Assembly (NCBI GenBank): GCA_905221605.1
Contig: CAJNDS010002627.1
Span: 62,001-126,000 of the forward strand
Source of the DNA: Symbiodinium natans
Taxonomy: Eukaryota; Sar; Dinophyceae; Suessiales; Symbiodiniaceae
Direction of reading: 5' to 3'
Length of the DNA stretch: 64,000 nt
Position 1 is the first letter of the stretch, and each line of letters begins with the position of its first letter. Below are positions 13,916-38,874 of this stretch, in pieces. The notes under the pieces were generated by a model. That model was not told the DNA's origin and searched no databases. It saw only the letters and a program-made list of their open reading frames with translations. A program made the position numbers and the translations under genes.

Positions 13916-14109
13916 TGACCTATGCTTTTGCCCAAGGCTGCTGTTCGAGGCCATGAATGGAAACACGACCATCTCTGGCTCGAACTCGACTAAGACGCTG
14001 AACTCTTCCCGAAATCCCTAAAAACCCCTATAACCATACTGAGAGTATCCACAATCCTAACAACAATACTAATAATCATAATCCGCCGACCCCAGCAACA
14101 GCGGGGCGG

Positions 14110-15780
14110 CGTCAGTGAAGACCCTCTGTTTGTTTCCCCCCCCCCTCCCCCCGACCTCCCCCCATCCCTGCCCTGACCGCAACCTCCTCCACTCCACCTC
14201 TCCGAACACTCTCTGTTTGTTCCCCCCACCCCCCCCGACCTCCCCCCATCCCTGCCCTGACCGCAACCTCTTCCACTCCACCTCTCCGTCCCCCCCACAC
14301 CCCCCGCCCCACCCCCCGCCCCCAACCCCCTACCCCCCCTACACACCCCGCCGACCTCCCCCCATCCCTGCCCTGACCGCAACCTCTTCCACTCCACCTC
14401 GCCGTCCCCCCCACCCCCCCGCCCCACCCCGCCCCCAACCCCCCTACCCCCCCTACACACCCCGCCGATTAGAAACCCCTCCCCCAACCCCTACCACCCC
14501 CCCGCCCTCACCTACCCCCACAGCCACGCCCCCCGCAGGCCTACCCCGACCCGCGACCTCCCCCCACCCCCGCGACCTCCCCCCACCCCCCACCCCCCCT
14601 GCCCTACCCCACCCGCTGCCGACCCCCCCCTCCGCCTCCCTTGCCGATGAGGCAATGATTTCAAGGCTCCAGTACCCGCCCTCCTTCCCGCCCCCTCCCC
14701 CACCCCCCCCCTACCCCTCCCCACCCCGCCTCACCCCCCCACCCCCCCACCCCCTCNNNNNNNNNNNNNNNNNNNNNNNNNNNNNNNNNNNNNNNNNNNN
14801 NNNNNNNNNNNNNNNNNNNNNNNNNNNNNNNNNNNNNNNNNNNNNNNNNNNNNNNNCACCCCCCTTCGCTTCCCTCCCCCCCTCACCCACCCTCCCGCAC
14901 TGCTCCCCTCCCTGTTTGTTCCCCGTGTTTTTTCCCGGGGCCTTCCCCCATCCCTGCCCTGACCGCAACTCTTCACTCCATTCCTCTGTCCGAGCCACGC
15001 CCCTCACATCCCGCGCAGGCCTACCCTCTAAACCCCCCACTCCCCCCGCTCTACCCCACCCGCTGCCGACCCCCCCCTCTGCCAAGACCTCCCCTCGCGG
15101 ATGAGGCAATCATTTACAGGGTCCTTCCCGCCCTTCCCGCCCTTCCCCGACCCCCCTCCCCCACCCCATCCCCCGCCCCCCTACCCTTCCCCTTCCCAAC
15201 CATTCCACTCCTCCTGCCCTGCCCCTCTCCTCTCCCTCCCCACCCGTCCTCCTCCCCCCCGTCCCTGACCTCCCACCCCACACACACCCACCTCACACGC
15301 CACTTCCCCCCACCCCCCCTCTGGCCCCGCCACCCCCCCTCCCCAGCCGCGCCCTGCCCCTCCTCAATCCCTCACCCACTGCGTTCTCCAAACCCCCCCC
15401 CTCCGCCTGTACCCCCCTCGCCGATGCCCTCTACCCAACCATTCCACTCCCTTCCCCTGCCCCTCTTCCTCAGTACCCTTCCCCTTTCCAACCCCATCCC
15501 TGCCCCTCTCCTTTCCCTCCCCCCTCCCCCACCCGCCACAACACAACCCCCCCTGCCCTACCCCACCCGCTGCCGACCCGCTGCCCACCCCCCCCTCGCA
15601 TACCCCCGCCTTCGCCCACCCTCTGCCCCCCACTCCCCCCCTCCCCAGCCCCGACCCCCCCAACACCCCACCACCCCCCCAAATACCATCCCCTCGCCCC
15701 CCGCCCACACCCGGGCATACCACACCCCTCCCCACACCCCTTCCCGCCCCCCCCACCATCCACCCTTCCCACCACTGTTT
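14110..15780. repeat. C-rich (plus strand) compound minisatellite
   Basis: Almost pure pyrimidine with occasional short ordered modules. A module containing CATCCCTGCCCTGACCGCAA followed by CTCTTCCACTCCACCTC recurs near 14165, 14245, 14365 and 14950. A second, containing CCACCCGCTGCCGACC and GATGAGGCAAT, recurs near 14610, 15060 and 15570. The minus strand is extremely G-rich with many G runs, so G-quadruplex formation is plausible. It lies directly 3' of the transposase ORF. The long Pro-rich or Gly-rich reading frames here are composition artefacts. Confidence 0.85.
14757..14856. other. Assembly gap of 100 N
   Basis: Exactly 100 undetermined bases inside the C-rich minisatellite block. The round size suggests a placeholder, so the true length is unknown and the tandem structure on both sides may be collapsed. 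Confidence 0.99.
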
Positions 15781-15911
15781 TTACCCCCCCATTGCTTTAA
15801 GGTTCCAACACACAGTCTTCCACCCACTAATCTTTGCATCTTGCATCTTGCATCTCTCTCAAGCCCGCTCCCCTAATCCACCCTCCTCTCACCCCCACCT
15901 ACTATTCCGCC

Positions 15912-16030
15912 CTAGCGCTCACATACCCCTTTCACCACGACTTCGCCTGCAGCGACGGTGAATCGGTGTCCGGTTGTCGATGCGTCCGTCTCGCGTGGTT
16001 GATTCGACCGGCGCCTTGCACTGTGGGCAC
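15912..16030 (-). pseudogene. Frameshifted last zinc-ribbon unit at the 3' end of the transposase ORF
   Basis: Aligned with the upstream 141-bp units, the last copy lacks 11 bases near 15972, between the ribbon's basic segment and its CGH. The deletion shifts the frame, so the ORF ends in an unrelated Arg-rich tail. The original frame (RFTVAAGEVV) continues out of phase to a stop near 15912. The protein therefore probably once carried at least one more intact ribbon. The helicase and Rep regions are unaffected. Confidence 0.82.
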
Positions 16031-19000
16031 TCGTACGAATAGACTCTACCTGCCAAGGCAGCCGCCACGACTTCGCCTGCAGCAACCACGAACTGGTGTC
16101 CACATTTCCGTCGGCTGTCGATGCATCCGTCTCGCGTGGTTGATTGCACCTTTGCCTTGCACTGTGGGCACTCGTACGAATAGACTCTACCTGCCAAGGC
16201 AGCCGCCACGACTTCGCCTGCAGCAACCACGAACTGGTGTCCACATTTCCGGCGGCTGTCGACGCATCCGTCTCGCGTGGTTGATTGCACCGTTGCCTTG
16301 CACTGTGGGCACTCGTACGAATAGACTCTACCTGCCAAGGCAGCCGCCACGACTTCGCCTGCGGCAACCACGAACTGGTGTCCACATTTCCGTCGGCTGT
16401 CGATTTTTCCGTCTCGCGTGGCTGATGCGATCTTCGCTTGACACTGCGGGCACTCGTAAGAGTATTTTCTCTTGCTGCCAGCCATCGTCGGCACGAGCTG
16501 CCCTTCCAGGGCTGTCAAGCGATGTCCGCATGCGCACCGACTGTCTACACTGCCGTCTCTTACGTCCGCCGCGATGGCTGCGCGGCAGGCCGGGCAACGA
16601 TAGACGACAGGCGCGCGCTCGGAGGGCATGACCGGACGTCCTCCATCGTCACGCAAACACTCGCCCTCCGACGGAAATGGTCTCGGCGCCGCCATGTCTT
16701 TGTTGGCACTCACGCTGCGTGCTGCACTCGACTGACGCTTCTCTTCTGTTGTCCCGCCCGCCTGGGCCGCCTGGGAACCGCACTGCGCGCAGGTGCCTTG
16801 CTTTTGCCGTTTCTGGATTTCGGCTCGCACCTCTTGCAGAATCTGCTGCCTCTTCTGGCAGCGGTCAGCACTGCGCACCTTTTCCCGTCGTTCATGCAGC
16901 CTGCGGCGCGCGCGCAGGCCGATGTCCTGGCACCGTAGCTGCTGGCGGCAAACATTGCATGTCCGGTCTCGTTTTTGGCGCCAGCCATTCGGCGTGAATG
17001 CCTCCTGCTGAAACCAGTGCTGGCAAGTGCCACATTGTCGCTTTTCCAAGCACATGAGGCAGGTGCTTTGCCAGATCAGATAATTGCTGATTTTCCCGGG
17101 AAATGCCTCCGGTGCCTGCCATCGCTTGCAGCGCCTACAGCGGTACGGCGTGCCGCGCTCTCGGTACGACTTCGTGCACTCCCTGCAAATGGCTACCTCT
17201 TCCGGCTGCTTCCATTGCCCTGCTGTAAAAGCCGATTTCAACCGCTCCGTGCGACACTCGCTACAGGTCTTCACTCGCACGTACCTCTGTACGATGGCGT
17301 CCCAGTTGACGTCGTGCGTGCGCAAGTGCTGCATGAGCAGAGCTCGGAAGCTTCTGTCGCCCTGTTGGAACGGAGCTGCATCAAAGCTTCGCAGAATGAG
17401 AATGCCTTCCCGACTCGTCACCCGCGTCAAGGCAACATACGCGGCCAAGACGTTGCTGTACGCGCCATAACACAAATCTGCGATGATGCCCTCCTCCAGC
17501 GTCTGTCCTTGTGCTTGATGAGCCGTCATAGCGAAAGCTGGTATTAGGGGAAGTTGCCGTCGCCGCACGGCCAGCACCGGCGATTTTCGGCCGGCGTCCA
17601 GATGCCACGTCGCACGTTTTGGCACGATGGGATACACGCCCGTGGCCAGCCCATGAATGCGCCACTTCGCGCCCGGAAAGCGAACGTAGACCACCTCGGG
17701 CAGCTTGTTCCACACCGTGCAGGCAGGCCCTCCCGACTCAGCACCGTCGGTGGCGTGCCGCCAACCCGTCACAAAGCCTCGCCGCCCTTTGAGGAGCCCG
17801 CGCGCCCGGTTGAGATGGTCAGTTATGAGCACGGGCATGCCGTCACACAGAGGCAGCATGCCACACAGCTCGCCGCACTCTCTCTCGTGGCGCTGCAGCC
17901 AGAGTAGTTTTTGGTCGGCTAGGTCCGGTTTCTCACGCACAACGGCTGCACAGGCGCGGTCCTCGGCCACGACGTAGTGCAGGTGTCTTTTCGTCCGGCG
18001 CGCGAAGGCCTCCGCGCGGATTTTATTCGTGTGGCATTTTCGTACGTTCGTGGCGAAGATAGAGGGCGCGAGGACAAAGCGACCCAGGAACTTCGGATCG
18101 TGCGGCGAGTCTGCCACCAGTCGCCGCGAGGCGCGCTCGGTGCGACACACCTCGCACTCCTGCGCGAGGATGCTTTGCGGCTGCGCCTTCAGCGCGCCGA
18201 GGCGTTGGCACGTTGCTTGTCCGCACTCAGCTCGCCCCCGCAGCCAGCTCCCTGGCACGTGCGTTGGTTTGCCATGCAGGAAGGCATGGTTGTCCGTCGT
18301 CAGATTGCCGAAGCGGAACTCGTCCTGCAGTTCTTTCAACCACTCGTCTTTAGTGCGCTCGCATTCTTCGAGCTCCGTGCAACCCTGGAAAGCCCGATCC
18401 GGCGGTCCCCACATGAGCTCCTGCCCCTGTGCCAGGAGGGGCCGCTGCCGCGCGCCTGCGCTGCCCAGCCATTCGTGCGGCAGATCGGCGATGAAGTGTC
18501 CTTTAGGGGGCTCCAGCTGCCACAAATCCCCAACGACAAGAACGTTCAAGCCGCCAAAAGGCTTGTCGATGTTGGCTGTGTCGCGCTTGAACGGGCTTCC
18601 ATTCCGAATCACACGCCGACAGGCTTGCTCTAATTTTGCCAACAGCTCCACACTCACCATGCTTATTTCGTCTATTATAAGCCAGCGCAATTGTAGCATG
18701 CGCTGTGCTTGCTGCAGGCCTTTCGTCAGGGGCGTGGCGTCCGCGGCGCTTTGGCCCCAGCTCAGCCCGAAGGCATGGTGCAACGTGTCCCCATCGACCA
18801 TTTCGGCTGTTACCGCCTGCAGCGCCGCGAATTGGAACTGCAAGCCTTGGGTCCAGCCCAGGATGTCCTCGAAGAGCTCCTTGCGCAGCAGTTTGATCGC
18901 GTGCGTTTTGCCGGTGCCGGGCCCACCGTGCAGCACCCAACGCATGGCGTCCGACAGGCCGGCGCGCGCGCCGCTCTGCGCCTCGCCTGTCTGCATCTCT

Positions 19001-22000
19001 TCCACGACCCTGCGCGCCACCCGCTCGATGAAGGCGTGCTGCGCCGTGTTGCAGACTGCCCTCCCCTTCTCGTCGACCCGACCGCGCAACTCTGTAATCC
19101 ACTCGTTGACAGCGTGCACTGTCGCGCGGACGCCGCGCATGCGTGCTCTCGGCTCGCGCTCGGTCTCTTGCCCCGCGAGGCCAGTCTCGTCCACTGCGCC
19201 ATGCTGCGGCGCCCTCCGCGCTTCCTTCAACAAGTCACGCACGTCCAACGTATTCTCTGTGGCCAGCGCGCGTCCCGGCTTTCCTTTCTCTGTTGTTTGC
19301 TTTGTTCTCCACGTCCGCTCCAGGTCTTCGTACTCTCCGGCCGGCGCCTCCACCCCGTTTTTTTCTGTTTTGCGCGTGGTCAGGCTCGTAGCCAGATTGT
19401 CCGCAGTCACGCGCACGGCAGTCGTGTCTGCGCCGTCGTTGTCACTGTTCTCGGCGTCCGCAGCGAGAGAGCGTACGCGGTACACGGACAGGAAATTCCC
19501 AACATGCTGTTTCGTTTCCTGACACGGAAGCTCTTGTAGCCAGGCCCGAAAGGCCGTCTCCCACGCGAGGTAGCTGCCCTGCAAGTCGGCTATATGAGGC
19601 ACGTCGCGGTCCGCATGCTGGGGCATGCCCGTCCACGCCCGAAAATACACCATGCATAGTTTGGAGTTCTCCTCCTGGCATTCTTGCTGGTACCGCGGCA
19701 CCGGGCAGTGGCCGAAGGTCGGGCAGCGCGGGCGGCGGCGTCTGCGCAGCAGCCATGCCGCACGTACGCGCGCGTTCGTGGGGATGTCCTCGAAGGCCTG
19801 GGTGTCGCCGCTGGGTTCGACGCGCAGGCGCGTATCCTTGCCGGGCACGAGGCGCACGCGCTTGCCCCCCCCTGCTCGAAGCTTTGCCTCGCCGCTCTCC
19901 GTCAGCGCCACGTCCCATGCGCTACGGGGCTGCGTCTCCCACTCCTGTAAAGTGGCCGGCGATTTCGTAGGAACGACCTGCCAGTACAGCAGAAATTCGT
20001 AGGGAGAGAGATGCCAGCAAGCGCTGTTGCGAGGACGCCGCGCGTAGAACTCTGCTGGTTCGCGTTCCGCCAGCTGCCGCTGTCGCGGCACGTGCTTGCT
20101 GCGGCCCAGCGACATCGCCGTCACCCGCCGGCGGTGTTCCGTTTCGCCGGTCATCGCCAAGTCTGCGTAACGAAGGAAATCTCGTCCGGGAAATGTCACA
20201 TACTGCGTTGTCGTGATTCTTTCCGCGCACGCCGCGTCGCCGTCCTTGTAGTTGCAGCGCAGATTGCAGCACTCAGCCTGCCCTCGCACGATCCCCTTGC
20301 AATACGCATCCGATAGAAAGCGCGTCATGTGCCGCTTCCCCTGGTACTCCACACCGCGACCCTTTGTTTGTTCTGCTAAGCGAGCATGCCCCTTTTGGAG
20401 CTCCTTCAGTTCGGCGAAGGCCATGGGTTGCGTTTTCGCGCAGTAGTCGCAGCAGTAGCCAGTCTGGGCATCTTGCGCGCGTTGCGCTGCCGCTACAATC
20501 TCCCGAAGCTCGCGCGGCTCCGTCGGTGATTGGCAGACATCGCAGACGTACGGTAAGCGGTACGGGAGTTGCACGTCAGAGTTGCACCGACCAAATGCTA
20601 AAATGGCGGGATGCGTCCCGTTGAGGTAGCCTTCGTCACGAGGCCCCTGAAGCGTGCAAATGCAATTCTTGCGTCCGGACGCGGGCATATCGCGTGCTTG
20701 CAGACGGCATGGGCACATGACGGCTGCCTCGTCCGTTACCTCGGCTTCCCGCGGAAAACCGCTTTTGCAGTCGCGAGGGTTATCAGCTTTCAGGCAACCT
20801 GCTTGGGGCACGCGCTCGCCTGTGACGGGGTCTGGCAGGTGCACGTGATGCTGCTTTAGTACCTGTAGGCGGAACACGTCATCACGCAAATATGCTTCTG
20901 TCCACAGATCTGCCTCCTCCGCGCTGTTTTCTGCGGCCATGACACCAGTTTGGTACCGTGGCCGGCTGATAAGCCGCTGCTCCGATTTGTATTCCGGCCA
21001 CTGCTGTTCTGCTGCATGTATCGCTGCCGCAACCTCCACGGGATCTCTTTCGTACACGCACCTGCGCACGTGTGAGTTGTAGCGCAGGTAGGCTTCGCGC
21101 AGTTCCGCCGCGCGCTCGGCTGTTGCCGCGAAAATCTCGTGCAGACTGGTGTGTTGATGCAGACACTGCACGAACAACTGCATATGCCCGTGCGGCGAGC
21201 CTGCAGATTTCTGGAACTCGATGCTTATGTATGCCGTGTCGATTCTTCCGAACACGCCGCCGTTCGTTCGCGCGCTGCTACCGCGCTCGTCTTGGCACGG
21301 CGTCGGTCCGCAGCTGCAGTCTGGGCAGTACAAGCACACATTCACGCCGAACAGGTGTCGCAACAACAGTAGCATTGTGACGCGAAACCCATCCACGGTC
21401 GCGAGCGGATCCCGTGCGAGAATGCGGCGTCTTTCCTCCCAGTTCGGCACGCGCGGCTGCAGACACTCCACTGGCAAGGAGCATGTGAAGTCGGCGTCAA
21501 GCGCGGGCCACGTCCGATCTCCTGCGGCGGCCGCCGCGCCAACTTCCGACAGTCGAATCGGGTCGCTCCGGCGATGACGCGACAAGCGAATGTACAAAAG
21601 CTGATGACCTTCGTCCGGAGTTACGGTAACGAAAATTGGGGTTCCGTATCGCACTCGCAGTCCTTGAATTTCAAAGCGCATTTGTCGGCGTGCTTCTTGC
21701 GTGCCAGGAATGACACGTGCCGTGTGGTGCATGTTTGCCAGGATGCGGCGGGCCGTCGCGGACAACCCCGTCGCGTACTTGGCGAGCGTGAGGCTTCCTT
21801 TGACGGGGAGCCGCCGTCCGTCCGGCGTTGCGTACGTCCCTTGCAAGGCTCGCAGGATCTCCAGGGCAGCGCCTTCGAGCGCTGCGGCTGTCAGCTTACC
21901 CCACTCACCGGAATCCTGCAGAACTGGCGTATCGTAGGAGTAGACACTGCGCGACAAGTTCACAGCGGAACGAAATAACACATTCCACGTCGTGTAGCCG

Positions 22001-25000
22001 AATGTCCAATCTCGGACCAATTGGCTTTCAACGCGCCGGGACATTGTCCGAACCCAGTCGGCAAGCCCGATGTGTGGGGCCTCTGGCGCGCGACGCCACC
22101 GTTTGTCTCGGAACTCTCCCCAGCCTGGCGGATCAGGCATAGCTGTGCAGTACTGGAACATATACGCGAACGCGACACCGAAGTACCACGGCGCGAACTG
22201 GTTCATGGGCGTGGACCGTGATACCACATCCATCTCCGGAGCCGGTCCGTCCTCTTGCTCGCTACCCACGTCTCGCAAGTCCTCTTCGGCAATCTCCGCC
22301 AGCGCACGCACAGCCTCTAAACGCTGGGCCTCGTAGTCGATAGCTTCCAAACCCGTCCTTTCCATGACCACCGCGTTGGGGCGCTTCAGGGCCAAGTCCC
22401 GCGCTGCTTCTTGCACCGTTGCCGGCACTGCCACCGGCGCAGCAACTTTTTGTTTCTCGATCAGTTGCAGGTTGTCGTCGCACGGGAGAACGGCTACGAC
22501 TTCGGGCGGGACACCATCCTCGGGCAGCTCTCGTTCCGCTCGTAGCCGCACCTGAGCAAGGTCCAGGTGGCGGAACGCCGGATGCTCTCTCTCGCATGCT
22601 TTTTCAATCAGCATGACAACAACGCGACGCCGAACCCGGGCCTGGTGGATCAGCTTGCTAAGCTCCTCCGGCGTCAGCTCCGCATCGTTGGTCTTCAATA
22701 TCACAGACACAAATTTCTGCAGGTCCTCCCCTGTGCGCGGCAACGGGGCTCGGGCGTGTGGTGCCAGATTCACTTCGTAGCCGCGGAACTGAGCCAGCAG
22801 GCTTTCCCAGTCCAGCAAGAAAGTTGTCGCGTTTCCGCGCGCTCCTTGCCGATGTCGTTGCATGTGCACGCGCTCATCCAGCGTTCGTCGATCCCTGTAC
22901 TTCTTTTCCAGACTGAAGCAAATCAAGCTCGTCATGCACGGGCTTGCACACACTAGCTCCATCATCGTCACGTTGAATTCGTAGAGCTCGCGCGGTGCAT
23001 AGTACACGACCATGTCATTGGCAAGTGCTTCCTTGGGCAGCTCACCCTTGCTGCTTTGCTCGCGACACGAGGCACAGACGGGAACCCAGCAGCGTGCACA
23101 CGCACGGCGTTCGCTGCAGCCGGCTTTGCATTCTTTGTCTTCGGCACAGCAAATCACCTTTACGGGCCCGGCTGGAAAGTCCAACGCGCAGGTCCAGTCC
23201 CGCAAATCGCGAAGCATACCTTCGCGCCGCGGCCCTGCCTTGTCGCCGACGTACCGCTCCACGTATGTTTCGTGCCCAAACAACGACGCCGTGCACTCGG
23301 CCGTGAGCCCGAGAAACTGCATGCAGCCGCTGTCATCCTTCTCCAGCGCCCTACTGAACCATATCTGGCTATGGGCTCCGCTCACGAACGGCCGTCGTCT
23401 AGCACAAAGCATGCAGACGCGGGTTTCGGGAGGGGCCTCTTCTAACGCCCGTGCAGCTTCCCGCAGACAGCGTCGATCCAGAGTCGTGCAAGCCAGCGGC
23501 GCGTTGCGCTGACACGCCACGTCGAGCGCCGCCCGATAAGCCTCCCAGAGACTTCCGCCGCGCGCTGCCGCCGCTGACCGCAGGCACGGCGCATGCACTG
23601 CCAACACGTGCCTCTGCAGTTCCGCCTCACTGTCGCCGGTCCACTCACATGTCGCAAAGGCGCAGTGGGCCTCCGCGATCTGCGCCGCCGCGTGACTGCG
23701 CGCGTATATCTGCGCGGCCCTTGGGAGTGTAGGGTACTCCAAGAAGGAGTCCGCGAGCGCAGCTAGCGCCACGTCGGCGCGCGCGCGGGGGTCGTCCGTG
23801 GCCGCAGCGGGCCGCGTGCGCAAGATGAAATGATCCTCCTCCAAGTCGTACGGACACTCCTTCACGCGGAGTGCCTCGTCCAAGCGCACAGGCTGCTTCA
23901 CAGAGTAGCGGCGGCGCTGCGGCGCTGCCGGCGCTGCGGCGGGGCTGTCCTGCCTTTGCGACGTGGGCCTCTGCGACGGTTGCCACGTCCACTTGCTTCT
24001 GCGTCGCGGTTTCGCTTGCTGCGCACCTTTCTTCGCCGTGCCCTTCCTGTCCACGCTGCCCGTCGCTGTTTTTCTGACGGCTCCTGCGGCCGCACCGGGT
24101 CGTCGCGAGTCGTCTGTGGCCCCTACGGGCCGTGCGGGCAGGATGAAGTGATCTTCCTCCACATCACGCGCACGCTCCGCGGCTTGGGGTGGCTCGTCCA
24201 AATGCCGGAGCTGCCGAATGGAGTACCGGCGGTGCTTCGTTGTTGCCGGCGCTGTGGCAGAGCTGCCCCGCTTCGGCGACGTGGCTTTAAGCTGGAGCTG
24301 CTGGGGCCTTCGCGAGGGCTGTTCTTTGCTTGTGCCCGGCTTCCCGTGGCACTTGCTTTTCGGGGGTCTCGTCCCCTCTTTTCTGGCGCCGGCTGCAGTT
24401 GCGCGCGCGCAGCTGCCCTTGCCGCCCGTCTGCGCGAGGTGTTTTCCGCACGCACTCGTCCGCTCGCTTTTCGGCTGGTCTGCACACTTCGGGGGAATCG
24501 CTGCGCCTGCGGGCGCAGCAATCTTGCTTTGGGCCGCCACCTCCGCTGCACGTTCTCCACACGTCCTGCCCGGGCCCGCGTGGTACGTCCGTAAAAATCC
24601 ACGGAACTCTGCGGCAACTTTGCGGGCCCCCACGCGTGACGTGTCGCTGTACTGGAGCCCTGCCTGCAGGAGGGTTTGGAGTAGCGCCGCTAACTCGTCC
24701 TGCCGGTCCCACGCCGCTACCGCGCGCGTAGCATCGATGTCGTTGGCCTGGATCCCCTCGGCGCCGCGCCGGGCCAGGAAGGCATTCAATGCGGAGCGCA
24801 TCTCCGGCATCGACGGCGCCAACTGCACGCGCTGGCCAGACGCGTTCTTTCTTGCGGCTAGCCCCTGTGCGGGCGCAGGCGGCGGCGACGGCGAGCCGTC
24901 GACACCCAAAGCTTCCAAGCGCCATGCATGTGCCTCTGCTGCGGCGCCCCGTGTTGCGCCGGTTGTGTGGCTGGACGCGGCACGCGGGACACCTCGCGTT

Positions 25001-27474
25001 GTCTGCGATATTTGCGGCGGGCACGCGTCTTCTACAGCTGCCGAGACCAGAGCATCGAAATGATACCCGTTGCCGCGGTCATCCATGTGATTGTACAGGC
25101 GCACCACGGTGTCTGCTGGCTGCTTCGTGGCGCCCAAACGAAGCGGCCATGCATCGGGATTCATGTTCGCGCTGTCAAAACGTGTGTAGACAATGACATC
25201 CACCGCCAGTGTTGCAGGCCACGGCCGACCAATGATGTACTCGTACAGAAACGTCGCAGCAGGCGGCCCATGTCGATCCAGTTCCAAATACGCACGATCG
25301 TTGGCCTGACCCCGCCCGCGTTCGTCGCGGTCTTGTGGACGGAGACTCTCCTCCGGTCCGTGGACGAATTCCGCACGACACGCAGCACAGGCTTGCGCCC
25401 TGCGCGTAACGTCGTCTTGAAGGTTCCGTGGCAGTACGTCGACGCTGGCCAAAGCCACAAGTAGCGAATCCAGGAGACAATTGTTGGCCCCGTGTGCGTG
25501 CCCTTGGCGCAGCTGCCACCCCTCGCATCGTAACATCTTCAACCGCTCCTGATTGCTTTGGACCTCGACTGCAGCGTTTGTCTCTGCTAGCCTTAAGAGT
25601 CGTTGACCTAAGTGCACCATTGCGCTGTCACTCGTAGCAGCCGCGACATCGTCCCAGCCGCTCCACTCTTTCACCCAGGCTTGTTGCAGAAGGTTCGTAA
25701 CTCTTTTTGCGTCGCCGAGCACCGACAACAGCACGGCTTCTAGGAGATCCGGTACTGTTTTTTCGCTGCGATTAGCAGATGGCCCACGCGCCCCCCCAAT
25801 TCGCGGCCGCGTCGGAGCAGCAGACATGGAACAAACCTGCGCCCAAGTCGTCATGGCCGTATGTGACGTGTTGCTGGCATACTGCTGCGCCACTTGCAGT
25901 AAATATGCATAGTCGCGATCCTCCTGCGCAGTCTGATGCAACCGCGCGCAGACTCGCATGCGCGCGACGGTCTGTGCAGCTTCTAGAGCAGCTACTCGAT
26001 TCTCCACGCACCACGGACAGTAGAATTCACGAAGTTCCCGCTCTGCGCAGCGGTTGCACACCCGCCGACGACAGGTCCTGCAACGACACAAATATTGGTC
26101 TGCCACATTGAGTTGGTGTTGCTCGACGCAGACCGCATCACAGAAGAAACATCGTGCGCGGGGCAAGGTTGCGGCGTCACTGGCGGCACTTCTTGGAGCG
26201 CCGCCCCGGACGTATACACGATTTCGGGGTGTAATTTTTTGGCATGACACGCCGCAGCCACGTGACGTTGCGTCCACGACAAAGGCGCATCTGCGGAACC
26301 GTGCCTTTCTCGTGCTCGCGGCAGGACTTCGTAGTCCTGCGTTGCCATCCACGACTGGCGTTTTTTCACGCAGCGCGACCCATCGCGGCCGCAGAGCCCG
26401 TACATGTTTTTTCCCACAATACAGCACTCTGCATGCAGTATCGCACGACTTGCATTTCCCGTACGTGGAACTGCCTGGACTTGTGGTGCGGACGGCGCCA
26501 GCAGAAGTGGTTAGTTTTTTGCGTGCTGCCCTTCTGCGTCGCCGATTCTGCCCCAGACGCCGTCCGCCCTTCCACTGCGCTTGCACCAGATGCGCCTGCT
26601 TCGCGATGCGCATGTATCGTGCCTCACAAGTGCCATCTGGGCATGGCCATCTGAACCCTTGCACATACTTATGGCCCGTCGTGGCGCGGCGCTTGTTTTG
26701 GGCCCCGATGCCTGCACGTGACACCATACGCACATCCCGGTCACCGCTGCCGCCCAATGGCAGGGCGCGCCAAGTGCATGGAGCGGCCACCGGTTCCCGT
26801 TGGCATGAGCAGATAGATGCCTCAGAGCACTGCGGGATCATGCCCAACAACGGGAAGCAAAGCAGCTTGTGCACACGCGTGGCTGTTCTTGTGTCTACGA
26901 AAGCTGTCAGGCATTCCTGCAATATGCCAGCAATACTGTGAAAACCACCGTTTACCATGTGCAACCCCGTGGTGTGCACCAATGTTGTTGCCCAGGCATT
27001 GCTACGCGATATGCAACAACTAGTCTCTAAAACCGCACGGGCGTACCTCTGCCGACGACACGCCGCACAACACTGCGCACGCTCCATGCCCGGGGGGGGG
27101 GAACCTCCATGGATCTGGTCAGTGTTTGCTAAAGATGCACGCCCACACATCACGAAAGCGTCTGCCCCAGGTGTTTTTGGTAAGGAGTTGACCTGGAAAC
27201 TCCTGCCAGTTTTTAAGGAGTCCTGGCGCCTCCCGCGGCATTTAACGTCTGCCGGCAAGACGTCTGTGGTCCATTCGCCATCAACACCCCGCGGTGTCTG
27301 CGTTGCCAGTGCCATCGCCCGGTTTGCTGTGCGCGCCACCTTTGCTGGTGCATGCGCCACACGGCTCTCCACGCTGTAAATGGCATCCGCAGTATCTGGC
27401 GTTCCTGGCGCCAAGGGTCGATCCTGTAGTGGCGCCATCGCTGCGTCAAGCTTTGGTGCCTCTGCACTCCCCAT
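15919..27474 (-). CDS. Giant Helitron/Helentron-type Rep-helicase transposase, 3,851 aa single ORF
   Basis: Putative rolling-circle transposase: the HUH Rep region would nick and join single-stranded DNA and the Pif1-type helicase would unwind it. Domains by residue: Cys-rich finger about 445-510; OTU-like cysteine protease about 655-805 (GANNCLLDSLL, with histidine in GNGYHFDAL); internal duplication of a RRYS...EEDHFIL block near 1075-1120 and 1188-1228; C2H2 finger about 1265-1295; Cys cluster then DUF6570-like region about 1440-1600; Helitron_like_N about 1750-2350, with HUH motif SPHGHM near 2090 and candidate Tyr motif GYCCDYCAK near 2338; Pif1 SF1B helicase about 2845-3355 (GGPGTGKTH near 2850, WLIIDEIS near 2931, VVGDLWQLEPPKG near 2985, AHQAQGQTLEEG near 3320, ALTRVTSR near 3348); treble-clef Cys pairs about 3405-3530; zinc ribbons about 3625-3840. 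OTU plus Rep-helicase is known in Helentrons. No stop or intron interrupts 11.5 kb. Element termini were not found. Confidence 0.92.
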   Translation of the reverse strand: MGSAEAPKLDAAMAPLQDRPLAPGTPDTADAIYSVESRVAHAPAKVARTANRAMALATQTPRGVDGEWTTDVLPADVKCRGRRQDSLKTGRSFQVNSLPKTPGADAFVMCGRASLANTDQIHGGSPPPGMERAQCCAACRRQRYARAVLETSCCISRSNAWATTLVHTTGLHMVNGGFHSIAGILQECLTAFVDTRTATRVHKLLCFPLLGMIPQCSEASICSCQREPVAAPCTWRALPLGGSGDRDVRMVSRAGIGAQNKRRATTGHKYVQGFRWPCPDGTCEARYMRIAKQAHLVQAQWKGGRRLGQNRRRRRAARKKLTTSAGAVRTTSPGSSTYGKCKSCDTACRVLYCGKKHVRALRPRWVALREKTPVVDGNAGLRSPAASTRKARFRRCAFVVDATSRGCGVSCQKITPRNRVYVRGGAPRSAASDAATLPRARCFFCDAVCVEQHQLNVADQYLCRCRTCRRRVCNRCAERELREFYCPWCVENRVAALEAAQTVARMRVCARLHQTAQEDRDYAYLLQVAQQYASNTSHTAMTTWAQVCSMSAAPTRPRIGGARGPSANRSEKTVPDLLEAVLLSVLGDAKRVTNLLQQAWVKEWSGWDDVAAATSDSAMVHLGQRLLRLAETNAAVEVQSNQERLKMLRCEGWQLRQGHAHGANNCLLDSLLVALASVDVLPRNLQDDVTRRAQACAACRAEFVHGPEESLRPQDRDERGRGQANDRAYLELDRHGPPAATFLYEYIIGRPWPATLAVDVIVYTRFDSANMNPDAWPLRLGATKQPADTVVRLYNHMDDRGNGYHFDALVSAAVEDACPPQISQTTRGVPRAASSHTTGATRGAAAEAHAWRLEALGVDGSPSPPPAPAQGLAARKNASGQRVQLAPSMPEMRSALNAFLARRGAEGIQANDIDATRAVAAWDRQDELAALLQTLLQAGLQYSDTSRVGARKVAAEFRGFLRTYHAGPGRTCGERAAEVAAQSKIAAPAGAAIPPKCADQPKSERTSACGKHLAQTGGKGSCARATAAGARKEGTRPPKSKCHGKPGTSKEQPSRRPQQLQLKATSPKRGSSATAPATTKHRRYSIRQLRHLDEPPQAAERARDVEEDHFILPARPVGATDDSRRPGAAAGAVRKTATGSVDRKGTAKKGAQQAKPRRRSKWTWQPSQRPTSQRQDSPAAAPAAPQRRRYSVKQPVRLDEALRVKECPYDLEEDHFILRTRPAAATDDPRARADVALAALADSFLEYPTLPRAAQIYARSHAAAQIAEAHCAFATCEWTGDSEAELQRHVLAVHAPCLRSAAAARGGSLWEAYRAALDVACQRNAPLACTTLDRRCLREAARALEEAPPETRVCMLCARRRPFVSGAHSQIWFSRALEKDDSGCMQFLGLTAECTASLFGHETYVERYVGDKAGPRREGMLRDLRDWTCALDFPAGPVKVICCAEDKECKAGCSERRACARCWVPVCASCREQSSKGELPKEALANDMVVYYAPRELYEFNVTMMELVCASPCMTSLICFSLEKKYRDRRTLDERVHMQRHRQGARGNATTFLLDWESLLAQFRGYEVNLAPHARAPLPRTGEDLQKFVSVILKTNDAELTPEELSKLIHQARVRRRVVVMLIEKACEREHPAFRHLDLAQVRLRAERELPEDGVPPEVVAVLPCDDNLQLIEKQKVAAPVAVPATVQEAARDLALKRPNAVVMERTGLEAIDYEAQRLEAVRALAEIAEEDLRDVGSEQEDGPAPEMDVVSRSTPMNQFAPWYFGVAFAYMFQYCTAMPDPPGWGEFRDKRWRRAPEAPHIGLADWVRTMSRRVESQLVRDWTFGYTTWNVLFRSAVNLSRSVYSYDTPVLQDSGEWGKLTAAALEGAALEILRALQGTYATPDGRRLPVKGSLTLAKYATGLSATARRILANMHHTARVIPGTQEARRQMRFEIQGLRVRYGTPIFVTVTPDEGHQLLYIRLSRHRRSDPIRLSEVGAAAAAGDRTWPALDADFTCSLPVECLQPRVPNWEERRRILARDPLATVDGFRVTMLLLLRHLFGVNVCLYCPDCSCGPTPCQDERGSSARTNGGVFGRIDTAYISIEFQKSAGSPHGHMQLFVQCLHQHTSLHEIFAATAERAAELREAYLRYNSHVRRCVYERDPVEVAAAIHAAEQQWPEYKSEQRLISRPRYQTGVMAAENSAEEADLWTEAYLRDDVFRLQVLKQHHVHLPDPVTGERVPQAGCLKADNPRDCKSGFPREAEVTDEAAVMCPCRLQARDMPASGRKNCICTLQGPRDEGYLNGTHPAILAFGRCNSDVQLPYRLPYVCDVCQSPTEPRELREIVAAAQRAQDAQTGYCCDYCAKTQPMAFAELKELQKGHARLAEQTKGRGVEYQGKRHMTRFLSDAYCKGIVRGQAECCNLRCNYKDGDAACAERITTTQYVTFPGRDFLRYADLAMTGETEHRRRVTAMSLGRSKHVPRQRQLAEREPAEFYARRPRNSACWHLSPYEFLLYWQVVPTKSPATLQEWETQPRSAWDVALTESGEAKLRAGGGKRVRLVPGKDTRLRVEPSGDTQAFEDIPTNARVRAAWLLRRRRRPRCPTFGHCPVPRYQQECQEENSKLCMVYFRAWTGMPQHADRDVPHIADLQGSYLAWETAFRAWLQELPCQETKQHVGNFLSVYRVRSLAADAENSDNDGADTTAVRVTADNLATSLTTRKTEKNGVEAPAGEYEDLERTWRTKQTTEKGKPGRALATENTLDVRDLLKEARRAPQHGAVDETGLAGQETEREPRARMRGVRATVHAVNEWITELRGRVDEKGRAVCNTAQHAFIERVARRVVEEMQTGEAQSGARAGLSDAMRWVLHGGPGTGKTHAIKLLRKELFEDILGWTQGLQFQFAALQAVTAEMVDGDTLHHAFGLSWGQSAADATPLTKGLQQAQRMLQLRWLIIDEISMVSVELLAKLEQACRRVIRNGSPFKRDTANIDKPFGGLNVLVVGDLWQLEPPKGHFIADLPHEWLGSAGARQRPLLAQGQELMWGPPDRAFQGCTELEECERTKDEWLKELQDEFRFGNLTTDNHAFLHGKPTHVPGSWLRGRAECGQATCQRLGALKAQPQSILAQECEVCRTERASRRLVADSPHDPKFLGRFVLAPSIFATNVRKCHTNKIRAEAFARRTKRHLHYVVAEDRACAAVVREKPDLADQKLLWLQRHERECGELCGMLPLCDGMPVLITDHLNRARGLLKGRRGFVTGWRHATDGAESGGPACTVWNKLPEVVYVRFPGAKWRIHGLATGVYPIVPKRATWHLDAGRKSPVLAVRRRQLPLIPAFAMTAHQAQGQTLEEGIIADLCYGAYSNVLAAYVALTRVTSREGILILRSFDAAPFQQGDRSFRALLMQHLRTHDVNWDAIVQRYVRVKTCSECRTERLKSAFTAGQWKQPEEVAICRECTKSYRERGTPYRCRRCKRWQAPEAFPGKISNYLIWQSTCLMCLEKRQCGTCQHWFQQEAFTPNGWRQKRDRTCNVCRQQLRCQDIGLRARRRLHERREKVRSADRCQKRQQILQEVRAEIQKRQKQGTCAQCGSQAAQAGGTTEEKRQSSAARSVSANKDMAAPRPFPSEGECLRDDGGRPVMPSERAPVVYRCPACRAAIAADVRDGSVDSRCACGHRLTALEGQLVPTMAGSKRKYSYECPQCQAKIASATRDGKIDSRRKCGHQFVVAAGEVVAAALAGRVYSYECPQCKATVQSTTRDGCVDSRRKCGHQFVVAAGEVVAAALAGRVYSYECPQCKAKVQSTTRDGCIDSRRKCGHQFVVAAGEVVAAALAGRVYSYECPQCKAPVESTTRDGRIDNRTPIHRRCRRSRGERGM
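16031..16453 (-). repeat. 141-bp in-frame tandem repeat encoding zinc ribbons
   Basis: Three near-identical 141-bp units (starts 16031, 16172, 16313) each encode 47 residues containing CPQC, a TRDG turn and RKCGH. They sit inside the 3' end of the giant transposase ORF. A more diverged ribbon lies towards the N-terminus (16454 to about 16604) and a broken one downstream. Units 16031 and 16172 differ at only about three positions, so the array expanded or was homogenised recently. The CxxC plus C-G-H pattern suggests zinc binding. Confidence 0.93.
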
Positions 27475-27613
27475 GAGGCTCTAGAGAAACAGTACCCAAG
27501 ATCGTGGCATGTAAATGCATCCTTGATGGTGGTCATATGTGCATGTGTCTCGATTAGCTTACAAACCGCAACGACTTGCCCGACGACTTTGCACCTCCAA
27601 GCCCAAACTGTCG

Positions 27614-28300
27614 TCAGACCACCATGTACGGATTGCATTGTGACACGGAACCTGACTGCCTGAAAATGCAGAAACTAGAATTTCTTTTGCGCGCGACTAA
27701 AGAAGGAGCTCGTGCTACTCCGCTGCAAGTCGAGCAAGCGCTCTTGCCAGCTTCTCCTCCAGGACAGGTGCTGCATGTGCCACGCCTTTGCTTCATTCGC
27801 ATTCCACTTTCTCTGAGGCATGTGGCGGAGTCCTCAATCCTCGCGATCTGCTCGCGAATCACGTCGGGCCTGAAGCTTTAACATTGCAGGCAACATACTC
27901 AACTTGCAGAAATGCGCTCAGATATGCGCTCAGATATGGTCGGCGCCCCTCGTCACTTTCCTCAGCAGGTAATCCATCCTGATCAGTCATGAGTGTGAGG
28001 ACGTGTGGGGATGTACTGGGACGCGTGGGGCATGGGGTCCTCCTGCTCTTGCTAGATCTCCTCAGCCTCCGGTTCATCGAAACATATGAGTTTGCCAATC
28101 CATTTACCCGGGCGACTCGAGATGACAGGGCCTCCTTGACGTGTCCGCCCGCTCGGACCTTCGTTTCGCCGAAGCTTACTTGCAGGTTCACGGGTTTTGG
28201 GCTCTTTGGGCTTCAGGGTCCAACAAGGTGTTGAAACCCCAAGACTCCTAAAGACGCGCTGAGCCCTCGCAATAAGAATCCTTTTTGGAGCCGCTGGCAT
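27614..28300 (-). pseudogene. Broken coding remnant upstream of the transposase ORF
   Basis: Protein-like segments appear in different minus-strand frames: an N-terminal MPAAPKRILIARAQRVFRSL stretch leading to PGKWIGKLICFDEPEAEEI and a TAG stop; then VIREQIARIEDSATCLRESG; then PVLEEKLARALARLAAE and another stop. The frame changes suggest an indel-damaged gene, although unseen introns could explain some of them. It lies just upstream, in the same orientation, of the transposase ORF and could be a decayed first ORF of the same element or an older host fragment. I do not recognise the family. Confidence 0.35.
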
Positions 28301-28591
28301 CTTCTCCCCCTTTCACTTTACTGCTACTTGTTTAAGAACTCCTCCCAAAAAATAATCCAAATGCTGCTCCTTGTAAAAACAGGGGGGTTGAGGGCCTGGG
28401 GGATCTAATCCCTGAACCCCTTGAACCTTCTGCAGCCTCAATGCCCCCCCGAAACAAAAAAACAAAAAAAAAACGGGGGGTGCTCTTCAGGCAGCAACGC
28501 CGCTTTGCTCATCCTTCTAAGAGCTACACCCTACCCCGAAAGCCCAACCCCCCCCCGCCCCGATTGCACACAGAATGCTAGCGTGATGGGG

Positions 28592-28861
28592 CCCTAAACC
28601 CTAAACCTCGAAACCCTAAACCCTAAAACCATGATTTCTGAAACCCTGAACCCTAAACCCTGAACCCTAAAACCATGGTTTCCAAAACCCTTAACCCTAA
28701 ACCCTAACACCATGATAGCTAAAACCCTAACCCTAAACCCTCAAACCATGCTTTCTAAAACCCTAAACCCTAAACCCTCCAACCATGCTTTCTAGAACCC
28801 TAGACCCTAAACCCTAAAACCATGATTTCTAGAACCCCTAAACCCTTGAAACCCTAAATAC
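28592..28861. repeat. Higher-order satellite built on CCCTAAA
   Basis: Six copies of a 12-bp spacer of the type ACCATGNTTTCT (starts 28628, 28672, 28709, 28745, 28782, 28819) are separated by two to four CCCTAAA-type units. Spacing is 44, 37, 36, 37 and 37 bp. The unit is about 37 bp and has amplified as a block, unlike the simple arrays elsewhere. Confidence 0.93.
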
Positions 28862-29404
28862 CCTCCACGCACGGATCCCGGCGTGATATTGCACGAGGAC
28901 TGGAAGTCCAGCATGGACAGGCCAATTGCTCACGTTCTGATATGGAGCCCACCTCAGTGGCTTTTAGGGTTTAGGGTCTCGGATTTAGGGTTCATAGTTT
29001 AGGGTTTAGGGGTTAGGGTTAAGGGGGCTTTTGGTGATACTTGCTTTTCTGGAGTCTGCTAGAGGAGCCGGCGACCACACAAGTGAGAACTATGAGGCGC
29101 TCTGTGCTGAGGAAGCAACGCCTGGGAGTGAGGCTGTGGCGCCACAAACTTGATGCTGGCAGTTTTGCTTCATACACCAGAAGACACACGAATACTGCTG
29201 CGTGGTGGGAGAAGCAAAAAGGAGGGAGCGGGAAAGAGGGAATCAAGGATTCAAACCTTACGGTGCAAGGTTTACGTTTCAGTTCTTGGGGTTTTCAAGT
29301 TCCACGGAATTGATCATGTATTCCTACATGTGGCACTTTAGAGCTATCGACATAAGCGCTTGGCATGAGTTTCCGTGTCCCGCGCTCTTTGCACAGGTTG
29401 AAAA
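28862..29404. other. No gene recognised left of the duplicated block
   Basis: Unique sequence with one degenerate TTTAGGG array. A frame at 29041-29313 on plus (90 codons) has no recognisable motif. Confidence 0.5.
28962..29020. repeat. Degenerate telomere-like array, TTTAGGG
   Basis: About eight units with changes such as CTCGGATTTAGGG and TTAGGGG; sits just left of the duplicated block of the spliced gene. Confidence 0.85.
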
Positions 29405-30072
29405 CAAGCATGACTTCCATCCGAATAGTTGAACGTACACGGCCGGACCGCGCCCTTTTTGGACAAGTCGCGCAGGCGAGACTCGAAAGTCGCGTCCCGG
29501 TGACGCAGCCCTGTGCGCGAATGAACAAGAACCACACAGCCCCATCCCCATGTCTAGACTAACTGCCTACCTCACTCGTTATGTCCCGGAGAAGCCTTGC
29601 ACGTTCCTTCGCAAGCAACTGACTTTCTGCTCACGTGCCTCTCTGTACAGCGACTCGTGAGAGGAGGAATTCCTGCTTTAGATCCGCCAAAAACAGCACC
29701 CAACGAGCCAGTTTTTTGAGCTCCTGCTTCTGCCAATCAAAAGCAGCACCCAACTTTTGCCAGCTGTCTGGCTGAAACATCTGCCCAGACCGCTACCACG
29801 CTAAGCACCATTTTAAAAGCACTAGGTCTTGCGTTGTTGCCAACCACTGCAGTCGACTCTTGAGTTCCTGCTTCTGCAGCTCGCATGGCAACCTGTACAA
29901 ATAACAATTGGACGCAAATATAGCGGCCTGCAGCATGTAGCACCTGTACTGCAGCGAGTGGTCCCAATGTCAGCCTCTGCTGTTCATGCGCGGACGGCCG
30001 CACGCAGCTGTACATCGACCCACCCTGCTATGCTGCGCAAGACTCAGACGCACCTTGAAAGCATCTACTCTG
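29405..30072 (-). repeat. Duplicated block, copy 1
   Basis: About 400 bp (29655-30070) matches 31240-31590 at roughly 95 percent by eye; the rest to 29405 matches more loosely. On the minus strand it encodes LPCELQKQELKSRLQWLATTQ and, further on, FESRLRDLSKK. The duplication edge falls at the TAG stop of the spliced gene (AGTAGATGCTT). Confidence 0.87.
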
Positions 30073-33000
30073 AGATCTCGTTGTCGTGGTCATCATCTTC
30101 TGGACGCTTACGCAAACCGTCCGCACTCCACGTTTGCGCCGTCGCCACATAGTCGATGGCAGTTTCAGCAAATCGACGCCCTTGCAAGGGTGCAAAGGTG
30201 GACATGCAGCAATACAACATACACCAATACAAGCTAGACAAAACGCACAACTTCGCAGACGAAGCGCGCTTGCGAGCACAACCACCTGTACCCCGAAGAG
30301 CCAAGAGATCTGCTGCCAAGGAAGAGGCAGCTACGCCATTAGCCACACCCGCCCTTTGCTGCATCTTCGCTGTCTTCAACGCCTGGTCGGCTGCCTGGCA
30401 TTCACAAGACGTAGCTCTACATGCACGTCTGCAGCTACGCTCACACACCATACCAACCGATCGCTAGCCCATTCTCTCGCACACTTACTCGCCCATGTAC
30501 CGCCTCACCCGGCCTCCCGACGCTGATGCGCCTCCTGGTCGAGAACATCAACTTGCCCGAGAGGAGCTAATAGCGTAGCAATGCGATCCAAAGGTGCATT
30601 GTCCTCAAGTACAACCTGCCAAGGAGTCACTATCATAAGGCGTCAGGCCTCGTCCGTCTGGGCTAGCGCTCAAGATACAAGGTCGACGGTTTAGACTGTA
30701 AGGGTTCAGTTCTGGATTTGCGTTCTGTACGCTTGACGCCTGCAACACTCCACCGTTGGATAGCGGGACAATCTTCTTGACGTGGCGGAAAAGGTCCCCT
30801 AAGAGCGGCTGCGTTGCAGCTTTCGCGGCTGCTCGCGACGGCACCGCAGTTGTGAGCACCACTCGCACCGTAGACATGCCAAGCGCGAGCTCCGGAAGCG
30901 CCTAACCCTCACACTCAAACCCGACAAATCTGCAGTCAGCCTTTCAGAAACAGCTCACAGTCGAGTGAGAATGTGTACACTTGTTGCAAACAAGCATGAC
31001 TTCCGTCCCATGAGCTGCCTGCAGGACCACGCAATGTTTCCACAGGTCGCGCAAGCGAGGCTCGACAGCCGGTTCACCGTGACGAAGCTCTTCACGCCAA
31101 CTTACACGAAGCACACAACACCACATATAGATCAATTTCCCACCTCGCTCGCTATTTCCCGGACAAACCTTGCGCGTGCCTTCGTCAGCAACTGACTTTC
31201 TGCTCACGTGCCTCTCTGTCCAGTGACTCGTGAGAAGAGGACTTCTGCCACCAACAAAAGCAGCACCCAACTTTTGCCAGCTGTCTGGCTGAAACCTCTG
31301 CCCAAACCGACACCACACTAAGCACCATTTTAAAAGCACTAGGTCTTGCGTTGTTGCCAACCACTACAGTCGACTCTTGAGTTCCTGCTTCTGCAGCTCG
31401 CATGGCAACCTGTACAAATAACAATTGGACGCAAATATAGCGGCTTGCAGCATTTAGCACCTGTACTGCAGCGAGTGGTCCCAATGTCAGCCTCTGCTGT
31501 TCATGCGCGGACGGCCGCACGCAGCTGTACATCGACCCACCCTGCTGTGCTGCGCAGGACTCCGACGCACCTTGGAAGCATCTACTACGTGCCTCTCTGT
31601 ACGGCGACGCGTCAAAGGAGGAACTCCTGCCTTGGATCCTACAAAAGCAGCCTCCAACAATCCAATTTTGGGTTCCTGCTTCTGCAGCTAGCATGGCAGA
31701 CAGCGTCTCGCCAACTTTTGCCGAAGCGCAAAGCAACAAGTGCTTTGAACGCAATTGGCCAGCTTTCTAGATGAGCCCTCTACCAACGCAAGTACGAGAC
31801 GACGCAATGTTAGAAGCGCAGAAGACTTTGATCCTAACCACGACAGGCGAGTCTTGGGTTCCTGCTTGTGCAGCTGGCCTCAAGCCTGCGTCTTGTTTTC
31901 GCATCTAGAACGCAAAGCCGAAAACTCACAACAGGGCGAGTTCCTGCTTTGGACGCCAGAAAAGCAAGTATTAGCATTGGCGAACTCTCGGCCACCAAAT
32001 GAGAAGCAACTTTTAGGCTTCGCGTCATGACAGCCTGGCGTCCAACGGATACTCTGAACTGCCTCGGGGAGACTTTGCTCAACTCCCACTGCTGTTCAAA
32101 TCTTCTAGCACTGCGCGGCCCTCCACGGGCAGCTCGCGTAAGACGGCCAAGTGCGCCTGGATCTCCGTGTGGGGAACCACGATGCTTCGCTCGTAATGCG
32201 CGCCAGTCTCTTTGGCTGGAACGATCCTTATAGAGCACATGCACTGCAACTGCTAGTCTCCGCGTTAGCGCTCGAACTGTGGACTTGCAAAGATCCAATC
32301 ACACACTCAAGGCGTCAACATCGCGTTCCGGCTGACGCTTCTACGAACCCAGGTTTGGGATTTCGAGGGCCAAATGCAGACAACACGCTCTCCATCAGCG
32401 CGGGCCCAATACCCGGTCCAACCTGGAAGCGCCCCACCCAGTGCGTATGTGCTGCCCGTGAGGCGTAGACAAACTCTGTGCCCCTGTTCCTGCACTTGCA
32501 GACGCACATGTCCTGCCCACCCCGGCGGCGGCAGCCGGCTCAGATCGAAAGGAGCCAAATCCGTCCGGATCTCTGCAGGTGGAGATATAGTATTGGCCCA
32601 GGCACCAACTACTTGTCGAAGCTCTTGGCATCCCACAGCCACCTCCACCTAATCGTCTGACGGACACAGTGAAGCACAGACAGTTACGAGTTAAGCGCAC
32701 GCACACACAGATGACGAGCGACCACATGCTTCTTACAGGACTCCTCGCCTTGGGCACAACGCGGCCACGAAACTCCGCTGCTGTGTTGCAGCGCCACAGG
32801 ACATACTGGTGGCATAAATGAAGCGCCGCGGCCACGTTATCTGGAGATCCTGCAACGTAGAGGCCCACCATGTAAGGCGGCGCACGCTGTGCGCGCAGCC
32901 ACATTTGTGCATCCTGGCCCTGCGAGCACATAGCCAGGAACGCACACACAACACACACGAAAGGAGCAATGCTCCAGCGTGTTGCACATGAAAAGACTGC

Positions 33001-33540: not shown

Positions 33541-33817
33541 TAACGCCAGAACTCTTCAACCTCGCAGGCACCCACACAAACCACACACACACACACACAC
33601 ATACACGTCCACACTAGCCTGCCATACATGTTCTCAACAACGCTACATGACGAGGCTCCCTGCACTGCCCTTCGCAGCAGCCCCTGCTGACTTCACTGCA
33701 GCCTTCTCGCTCATGGCTCGATGGACACTGCCCTCTCACAGATCTTGCACGGGGCCAAAGACTCCACGAAAACCAACAACCGCAGAACTTATGTCCTCGA
33801 AGGGGCTTTCCGTTTCG

Positions 33818-33910
33818 GGTTTAGGGTTTAGGGTTTTGGGTGTTGCTGAATTTAGGGTTTCAGGGCTTACCCCTCAGGGTTTAGTTTAGGCTTCAGGTTT
33901 AAGGTTTCTT
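33818..33910. repeat. Degenerate telomere-like array, TTTAGGG
   Basis: Two good units and then increasingly diverged copies. A sentence-like duplication of TTTCAGGGCTTACCCCT occurs at about 33859 and 33926. Confidence 0.8.
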
Positions 33911-34216
33911 GCTGCATTTAAGGTTTCAGGGCTTACCCCTGAAACTGTCACTATGCTGCCCAAGGTTTCAGGGCTTTCATTCCTGTAGCATTTAGGATCA
34001 GGCATCCCCCAGGGACAAGCCTACACCAGCAACAAAACCCACCGGCACAGAAGCCGATCCCTGGGCTCTTTCCAAAAAAATATCCAAGCGATGACTTTCA
34101 CTCTATTTTTTTGGGAGGGGAGGGTTCCCGAGCGAATCGTAGCTTGGGATTCTTAGCAGACAAAGCTTGACAGAGGCTCTGCACAGTGCTGACATAAGAG
34201 GCCCTGAACAAAAAAA

Positions 34217-34324
34217 CTAAACCCCACCCAAGCCCCAAACCCCAAACCCTAAACCCTCAACCGCCAAACCCTAAACCTTAAACCCCAAACCCTAAACCCC
34301 AAACCCTAAACCCTAAACCCTACC
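34217..34324. repeat. Telomere-like array, CCCTAAA/CCCCAAA mixed
   Basis: About 14 units in which CCCTAAA alternates with CCCCAAA. Related arrays lie at 34436-34515 and 34639-34665. Confidence 0.9.
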
Positions 34325-34862
34325 TGGGACAAGTAGGAGCTCAGTACCTGCAGCTGTGCACCCAGAGTTGTCAGGCAGTTTAGGTGCTCAAGGGTTGGGA
34401 ACTTGGGGTCTGAAGGTTTTGGGAGTCGGACTTGGGCTAAACCCTTACCCCTTAACCCTAAACCCTAAACCCCCAACCCTAAACCCTAAACCATAAACCC
34501 TAAACCCTAAACTCCACAGCCGGGCCGTTGGCTAAACGAAAAGTTCACCAGGAAGACCGGAAGCCACACCGACCTGGGCTTGGGTGTCGGTTCACGGCTT
34601 AGGGAGGCACCTGCTCCTCGGGGCTGCAAAGAATCCAAACCCTAAACCCTAAGCCCTAAACCCCTCAACATTGTCATTACCTACGGAGGGCTCCGAGGCA
34701 ATGAGCTGGCAGGGCTTAGCTCTTGTATAGGCTTTTTGTGCTTCGGCGAGAAGCGACAACTCTGCACAAATGGGCACTGGGGAAACCCACCAACTCGGTA
34801 CAGCCTTGGTATACAAAACGCTTGCACAAAGCAGGGTGAATCAATTGCCGCGGCCGCACTTC

Positions 34863-38636: not shown

Positions 38637-38689
38637 TAGGACTTTCTGCAAGGCTGGCCCGCAACCCTGAGCCCCCAGATCTCCAGAAC

Positions 38690-38845: not shown

Positions 38846-38874
38846 GGTTGGGGGTTTTGGGATTCTTGGAGGTT

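Follow-up and report, generated by a model that had tools for sequence, protein, structure and literature searches.

The 64-kb window, which is the whole stretch of Symbiodinium natans DNA analysed (C2315:62001-126000), contains what is very probably a giant autonomous Helitron2-type rolling-circle transposon, 31,412 bp in length. This assignment is based on the element's ends, the differing flanks of its copies, the conserved catalytic residues, constraint on the transposase core, and recent copying, as established by searches of the window's own genome (759 Mb). An earlier sequence-only reading had equated the element with an 11.5-kb reading frame, an extent that has to be revised to 31.4 kb (14082-45493). 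The main features are as follows.

14082..45493, + (LTS at left, RTS at right): complete element of 31,412 bp, with termini common to copies with differing flanks
14082..14124, +: left end, 5'-TCCGCCGACCCC.., with an 11-bp asymmetric inverted repeat (ATIR) and a hairpin
14117..15900, - (coding strand): G-rich block, 26 G4-type motifs in 1,783 nt, with a 100-N gap at 14757-14856
15919..27474, - (27474 to 15919): RepHel-OTU reading frame, 3,851 aa, one stop-free frame
23056..44639: stretch absent from three young copies, one common junction, 21.6 kb
33146..45493, no strand assigned: transposase-free half, also at C2440 with another flank
39820..41604, -: ORF2, 594 aa, with a Cys-rich N terminus
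45463..45493, +: right end, a conserved block of 31 nt with the ATIR 20 bp from the terminus

The uninterrupted frame of 3,851 codons described from the letters alone is confirmed on the minus strand, and its OTU, DUF6570, HUH-Rep, Pif1 helicase and zinc-finger parts are each backed by profile or structure comparison.

25030..25572, -: OTU-fold domain, residues ~635-815, with Cys666 and His805, from model and fold comparison
22543..23049, -: DUF6570, residues 1476-1644 (Pfam 1.2e-10)
21181..21783, -: Helitron_like_N match, residues 1898-2098, with His2095/His2097
20443..20457, -: paired Tyr2340/Tyr2344, downstream of the Helitron_like_N match
17380..18951, -: Pif1 helicase, residues ~2842-3365 (Pfam 3.5e-13; PDB Pif1 2.1e-12)
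15922..17295, -: zinc tail, residues ~3394-3851, treble-clef-like Cys pairs followed by 47-aa zinc-ribbon repeats

The frame thus fuses a Rep with an HUH motif and paired Tyr to a Pif1-type helicase, the hallmark of the Helitron superfamily, and profile and structure comparison bear out the RepHel proposed by the sequence-only reading. The DUF6570 and Pif1 parts named there hold at the Pfam values given, and the OTU part is recovered by model and fold comparison as a fold with its catalytic Cys and His, the Pfam OTU model giving no match in the frame. No C-terminal endonuclease (AP type) was matched in Pfam at E up to 1. The N-terminal 450 codons have weak base periodicity, a hint that they might be non-coding; a related Cys-rich stretch is kept in the homologue P0006 and, weakly, in P0004 and P0030. 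The final zinc-ribbon unit has an ending unlike that of the other units. The zinc fingers are probably DNA-binding, and the OTU domain would probably strip ubiquitin from the transposase itself or from proteins that work with it. Deubiquitinase activity of transposon OTU domains had not been assayed as of PMC9741609, according to the available part of that paper, which describes another protease class with deubiquitinase activity in zebrafish Helitrons and suggests protection from degradation.

Within the window a single left end and a single right end lie 31,412 bp apart, and the RepHel gene is oriented opposite to the element's left-to-right direction. The 11-bp ATIR is located 1 bp from the left end, and its inverted copy 20 bp from the right end. 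The first 40 nt of the left end form a hairpin (z -3.99 vs shuffles), and the 54 nt of the right end fold no better than shuffles (z -0.22), with a stem of just 4 bp (TGGC/GCCA). A within-window comparison covering up to position 40000 recovered no terminal repeats; it missed the right end because it reached only that far, the right end lying 18 kb upstream of the gene. The element starts 5' with TC (+ strand, TCCGCCGACCCC) and terminates in ..CCATTAAA or ..CCATCAAA, not in CTRR, the right end in the window having TTTGA instead of TTTAA. Borders drawn from copies with different flanks place the insertion between A and T. In coding orientation, an A precedes TTTAATGG.. in each copy with a located right end, and a T follows ..GGCGGA in each with a located left end except C2306, which has A there. 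Among further ends fetched, A stands before TTTAA in 19 of 20 right ends (10 of which have one common flank and are not independent), and T adjoins all 20 left ends, again in coding orientation. Judged on the first 12 nt past the conserved block, these 20 right ends run on into 13 distinct sequences. The shared flank, which in coding orientation precedes 10 of the 20 fetched right ends (L031-L050) and also those of C2387, C202 and C480, ends in ..GGGGACCTCGCGCTGCCCGA; it may be the left terminus of a sister family arranged head-to-tail, as in a 316-bp unit at C480:281332/281648, or perhaps a favoured target. Both outer flanks of the window element contain a direct near-repeat of ~23 bp (91%; 14030-14051 and 45511-45533), and a 597-aa frame with ankyrin repeats lies outside the element (4055-5848, minus strand).

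Common termini, which the sequence-only reading had looked to genome-wide copies to provide, are abundant: a right-end 26-mer has 612 matches with up to 3 mismatches, a left-end pattern has 280 exact matches, and the reversed patterns have 0 each. Pairing was assessed for 100 listed exact right-end matches and 55 left ends from the same contig range. At least 34 of the 55 listed left ends are paired with a listed right end in the right order, on the same strand and within 60 kb, compared with 3 pairings in the wrong order and 1 across opposite strands; the remaining 21 have no partner in the right order among the 100 listed. The 34 listed pairs measure 0.31-14.3 kb (median 3.1 kb), making the 31.4-kb element an outlier. 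Given these small sizes and the varied sequence inside the right ends, most family members are probably non-autonomous, and hundreds of elements with common ends have probably been moved in trans. Elsewhere in the genome, a Helitron_like_N match far stronger than that of the window element's family (G000:C586:1158-1670, 9.2e-50) probably belongs to a different Helitron group, and equal-scoring Helitron_like_N matches in 2,106-codon frames (e.g. C954, C1260, C1334, C1375 and C1421 of G000) are perhaps another recently amplified RepHel family.

A protein search of the genome located the core on nine other contigs at 83-100% identity, together with more distant loci at 34-48%, and 19-30 kb was fetched around each of the nine core-bearing loci for comparison. 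Three copies (C657, C2281 and C341) follow the window from 23055 toward the 3' side at 99.1-99.6% identity, and the match then jumps stepless to 44640-45493 at ~98%. Because all three have the same junction and differing outer flanks, 44640-45493 is identified as the other end of the element; these copies descend from one internal deletion. Core dS between the window and these three young copies is 0.0036-0.0064, so that the recently active copy postulated earlier stands, and the element has been recently mobile. The right-end block is present in eight of the nine other copies (missing in C2540) and the left end in six; C341 stops at a contig end, and C2227 and C2540 have none in the fetched part. 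C2540 is the sole other copy among the nine with the OTU region, and the 30 kb examined there contains neither end. Right ends are present in nine other copies that were examined; eight of these have lost the right-proximal part and kept the left-proximal part, a count in which three of the eight share one event and to which C2440, its left part unassembled, is the exception; eight of the nine were found via the core protein, which biases the count toward core-keeping copies.

The sequence-only reading had also pointed to dN/dS among copies, and the core is under constraint, with dN/dS of 0.078-0.112 against six old copies, values that blend selected and neutral time given the stops in two old copies. 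Values are higher for the N-terminal and OTU region (0.285, from C2540 alone) and for the tail (0.18-0.34, old copies). Tail values against young copies (0.54-0.59) were discarded, the repeat units not being alignable one to one.

The half without transposase recurs at C2440:211243-223584, which is 99.56% identical to window 33146-45494 over 12,352 bp and has the same right end and its own flank, so that this half moves too; the left side of this copy is cut by a 100-N assembly gap. ORF2 at C2440 is identical except for 1 residue and is the only other full-length match in the genome search. Fragments occur at C2341:147091-147345 (residues 1-85, 95%) and C480:494891-495251 (82/76%, with stops), both possibly remnants of other giant copies, and weakly at C247. 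ORF2 has no Pfam matches at E up to 1 and nothing below E 0.07 in a PDB search, and the genome search found no host parent gene for its capture, with only fragments beyond the window and C2440.

Among the copies compared, the full gene and the right-hand half are found together in the window alone, and the stretch 27475-33145 rests solely on the continuity of the window. Two pieces might thus be present, the right end at 45493 belonging to a neighbour, with host DNA between there and the gene. The lower, host-like GC of the interior (28.5-43.5 kb), the telomere-like arrays there, the limit of 14.3 kb on the 34 listed pairs, and the lack of a second genome match for 31900-33145 would agree with this arrangement. 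It is nevertheless unlikely, since the window has a single end of each kind, correctly ordered, 33146-45493 recurs at C2440 as one block beside a flank of its own, and the three young copies link the same 44640-45493 block to the 3' part of the gene. In a single giant element, telomere-like arrays inside the interior are carried along when it moves. Such (TTTAGGG)n arrays, in both directions, extend over much of the window (e.g. 74-156, 13617-13751 and 43872-44054), element interior included, and the interior also contains a 300-nt direct repeat (29738-30037 and 31255-31554, 97% identical).

The G-rich block adjoins the left end, where the helicase should start, and the 11.5-kb frame lacks G4-type motifs on both strands. 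The coding strand 3' of the gene is 39-63% G in all nine elements compared, eight of them besides the window element, and each block has between 15 and 97 G4-type motifs, against 0-5 outside the block in the eight others and 34 in the window element. Block length is 1.6-4.9 kb in the seven elements with both ends, approximate figures because the tail start was set by the last alignable repeat; the C341 block is cut by the contig end and that of C2227 is unbounded. G-poor stretches interrupt the blocks of C2227 and C202, and opposite-strand motifs number 3 in C2387, 9 in C2227 and 16 in C202. It may be speculated that the block plays a part in copying of the element.

A protein search returned 30 relatives from 1,966 scored candidates. 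Five carry organism hints (two 'Skav', presumably F. kawagutii, Polarella glacialis, Cladocopium goreaui, and the fungus Peniophora), and the other 25 are termed dinoflagellate-type because they cluster with the named ones in the tree. There, a single clade (support 1.0) unites 27 dinoflagellate-type proteins and excludes 25 reference proteins; the tree is rooted on one Helitron1-like protein, uses 26 of 124 reference proteins, none an identified Helitron2, and omits three of the 30 relatives, whose core piece did not exceed 1,300 aa. Of the 30 homologues, 15 have the OTU Cys motif, 4 have other residues in its place and 11 are gapped there in the alignment; the His motif occurs in 17. Zinc tails differ in repeat number (e.g. 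9 ribbon matches in P0004), and the C terminus of P0028 (Polarella glacialis) is a long tandem CxxC array after the helicase, with weak Stc1 similarity. A scan of viral and GTDB contigs found no relatives. The A1 profile search gave 5 proteins (three Peniophora, two without a name), and the P0034 search gave 524, nearly all of the 120 listed being labelled DUF6570 and none of these 120 OTU or endonuclease; no paper on DUF6570 was found in the literature. Helraiser (PDB 7lcc), a canonical Helitron, shares 15% identity over the aligned part.

The available part of PMC3627910 defines Helitron2 by a 5' T, a 5'-ATIR that lies 0-2 bp inside the terminus and pairs with downstream bases in a hairpin, and a 3'-ATIR set back 20-30 bp from the other terminus with a hairpin after it; some members have inverted RepHel genes. 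The ATIR offsets, left hairpin, 5' T and inverted RepHel, and the lack of an endonuclease, place the element in Helitron2 and not among strict Helentrons, with a weak 3' hairpin. The Helitron2 group (Chlamydomonas Helitron-2_CRe; Helitron-1_DR, with inverted RepHel) is alike in ATIR placement, left hairpin and 5' T, but the window element differs from those described in the same excerpt in its 31.4 kb, OTU within the RepHel frame, zinc-repeat tail, G-rich block and ORF2. Fusarium FoHeli elements (PMC5148889, in part) share the TC start, ATIR and left hairpin (FoHeli1/2) or inverted ORFs (FoHeli4/5), but are ~5-11 kb with other end sequences and, in the portion available, no reported OTU. Proto-Helentron-Pi (~14 kb; PMC4067079, excerpt) resembles it in a RepHel without endonuclease and A/T insertion, but has 5'TT and 3' CTAG ends, a RepHel of 1,783 aa and a separate SET ORF. 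Size alone is not new, since maize Helitrons reach 39 kb (PMC6431247, excerpt).

The Helentron label given by the sequence-only reading does not hold, the C-terminal endonuclease by which that group is defined being absent from the matches and the ends being Helitron2-like. Helentrons with OTU or VTD proteases (PMC4067079 and PMC9741609, as far as their available text goes) do combine OTU with RepHel and have S before HxH, a Helentron-type signature (PMC4067079) found before PH/LH in just 21 of 30 members of the window element's family, and canonical Helitron1 shares the 5'-TC and A|T insertion. Membership of either group is very improbable: the C-terminal endonuclease and TT target of Helentrons were not found here (no endonuclease match at E up to 1), the ATIR and left hairpin are present, and the right end is not CTRR. 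Strong core constraint and related proteins in other dinoflagellates might suggest a domesticated, immobile host gene of Helitron origin, but near-identical copies with common ends and different flanks, and the many shorter end pairs, leave this scarcely credible.

As far as the literature search reaches, the combination of an intact, giant, autonomous Helitron2 and an OTU domain in the same frame is new: among the matches listed, searches on dinoflagellate Helitrons, Helentron OTU, HLE2/HELIANO and giant Helitrons found no description at the level of titles and abstract starts. The undescribed lineage proposed earlier is plausible in this respect, although related proteins are already in databases, mostly nameless. 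In the accessible parts of two dinoflagellate papers, Helitrons occupy a single sentence (PMC9087856) or are not mentioned (PMC8045281).

Following the known Helitron mechanism, from which nick, left-to-right displacement and right-end stop are inferred, RepHel would nick the left end (TC..) using its paired Tyr and HUH motif, and the Pif1 part would displace one strand from left to right, against the gene direction. The right-end ATIR and hairpin would halt displacement, and the displaced strand would be joined into an A|T site. Loss of the right-proximal part is consistent with copying that begins at the left end and jumps prematurely to the right one. More tentatively, and with the balance somewhat against it, a dinoflagellate Helitron2 dynasty may be envisaged, in which one giant autonomous element, equipped with a deubiquitinase-like domain and, on the Pif1 entry side, a strand-biased G-quadruplex block, drives hundreds of others that keep just the 31-nt right and ~43-nt left end, their middle being almost any DNA, including telomere-like arrays, and losing right parts as if copying starts at the left and jumps early. 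An intact, recently copied element with known ends provides an annotation key, in the form of two short end patterns, for large and poorly annotated dinoflagellate genomes. It also offers a natural opportunity to learn whether the OTU domains of transposons act on ubiquitin, and a setting in which to ask whether a G-rich block shapes rolling-circle copying.
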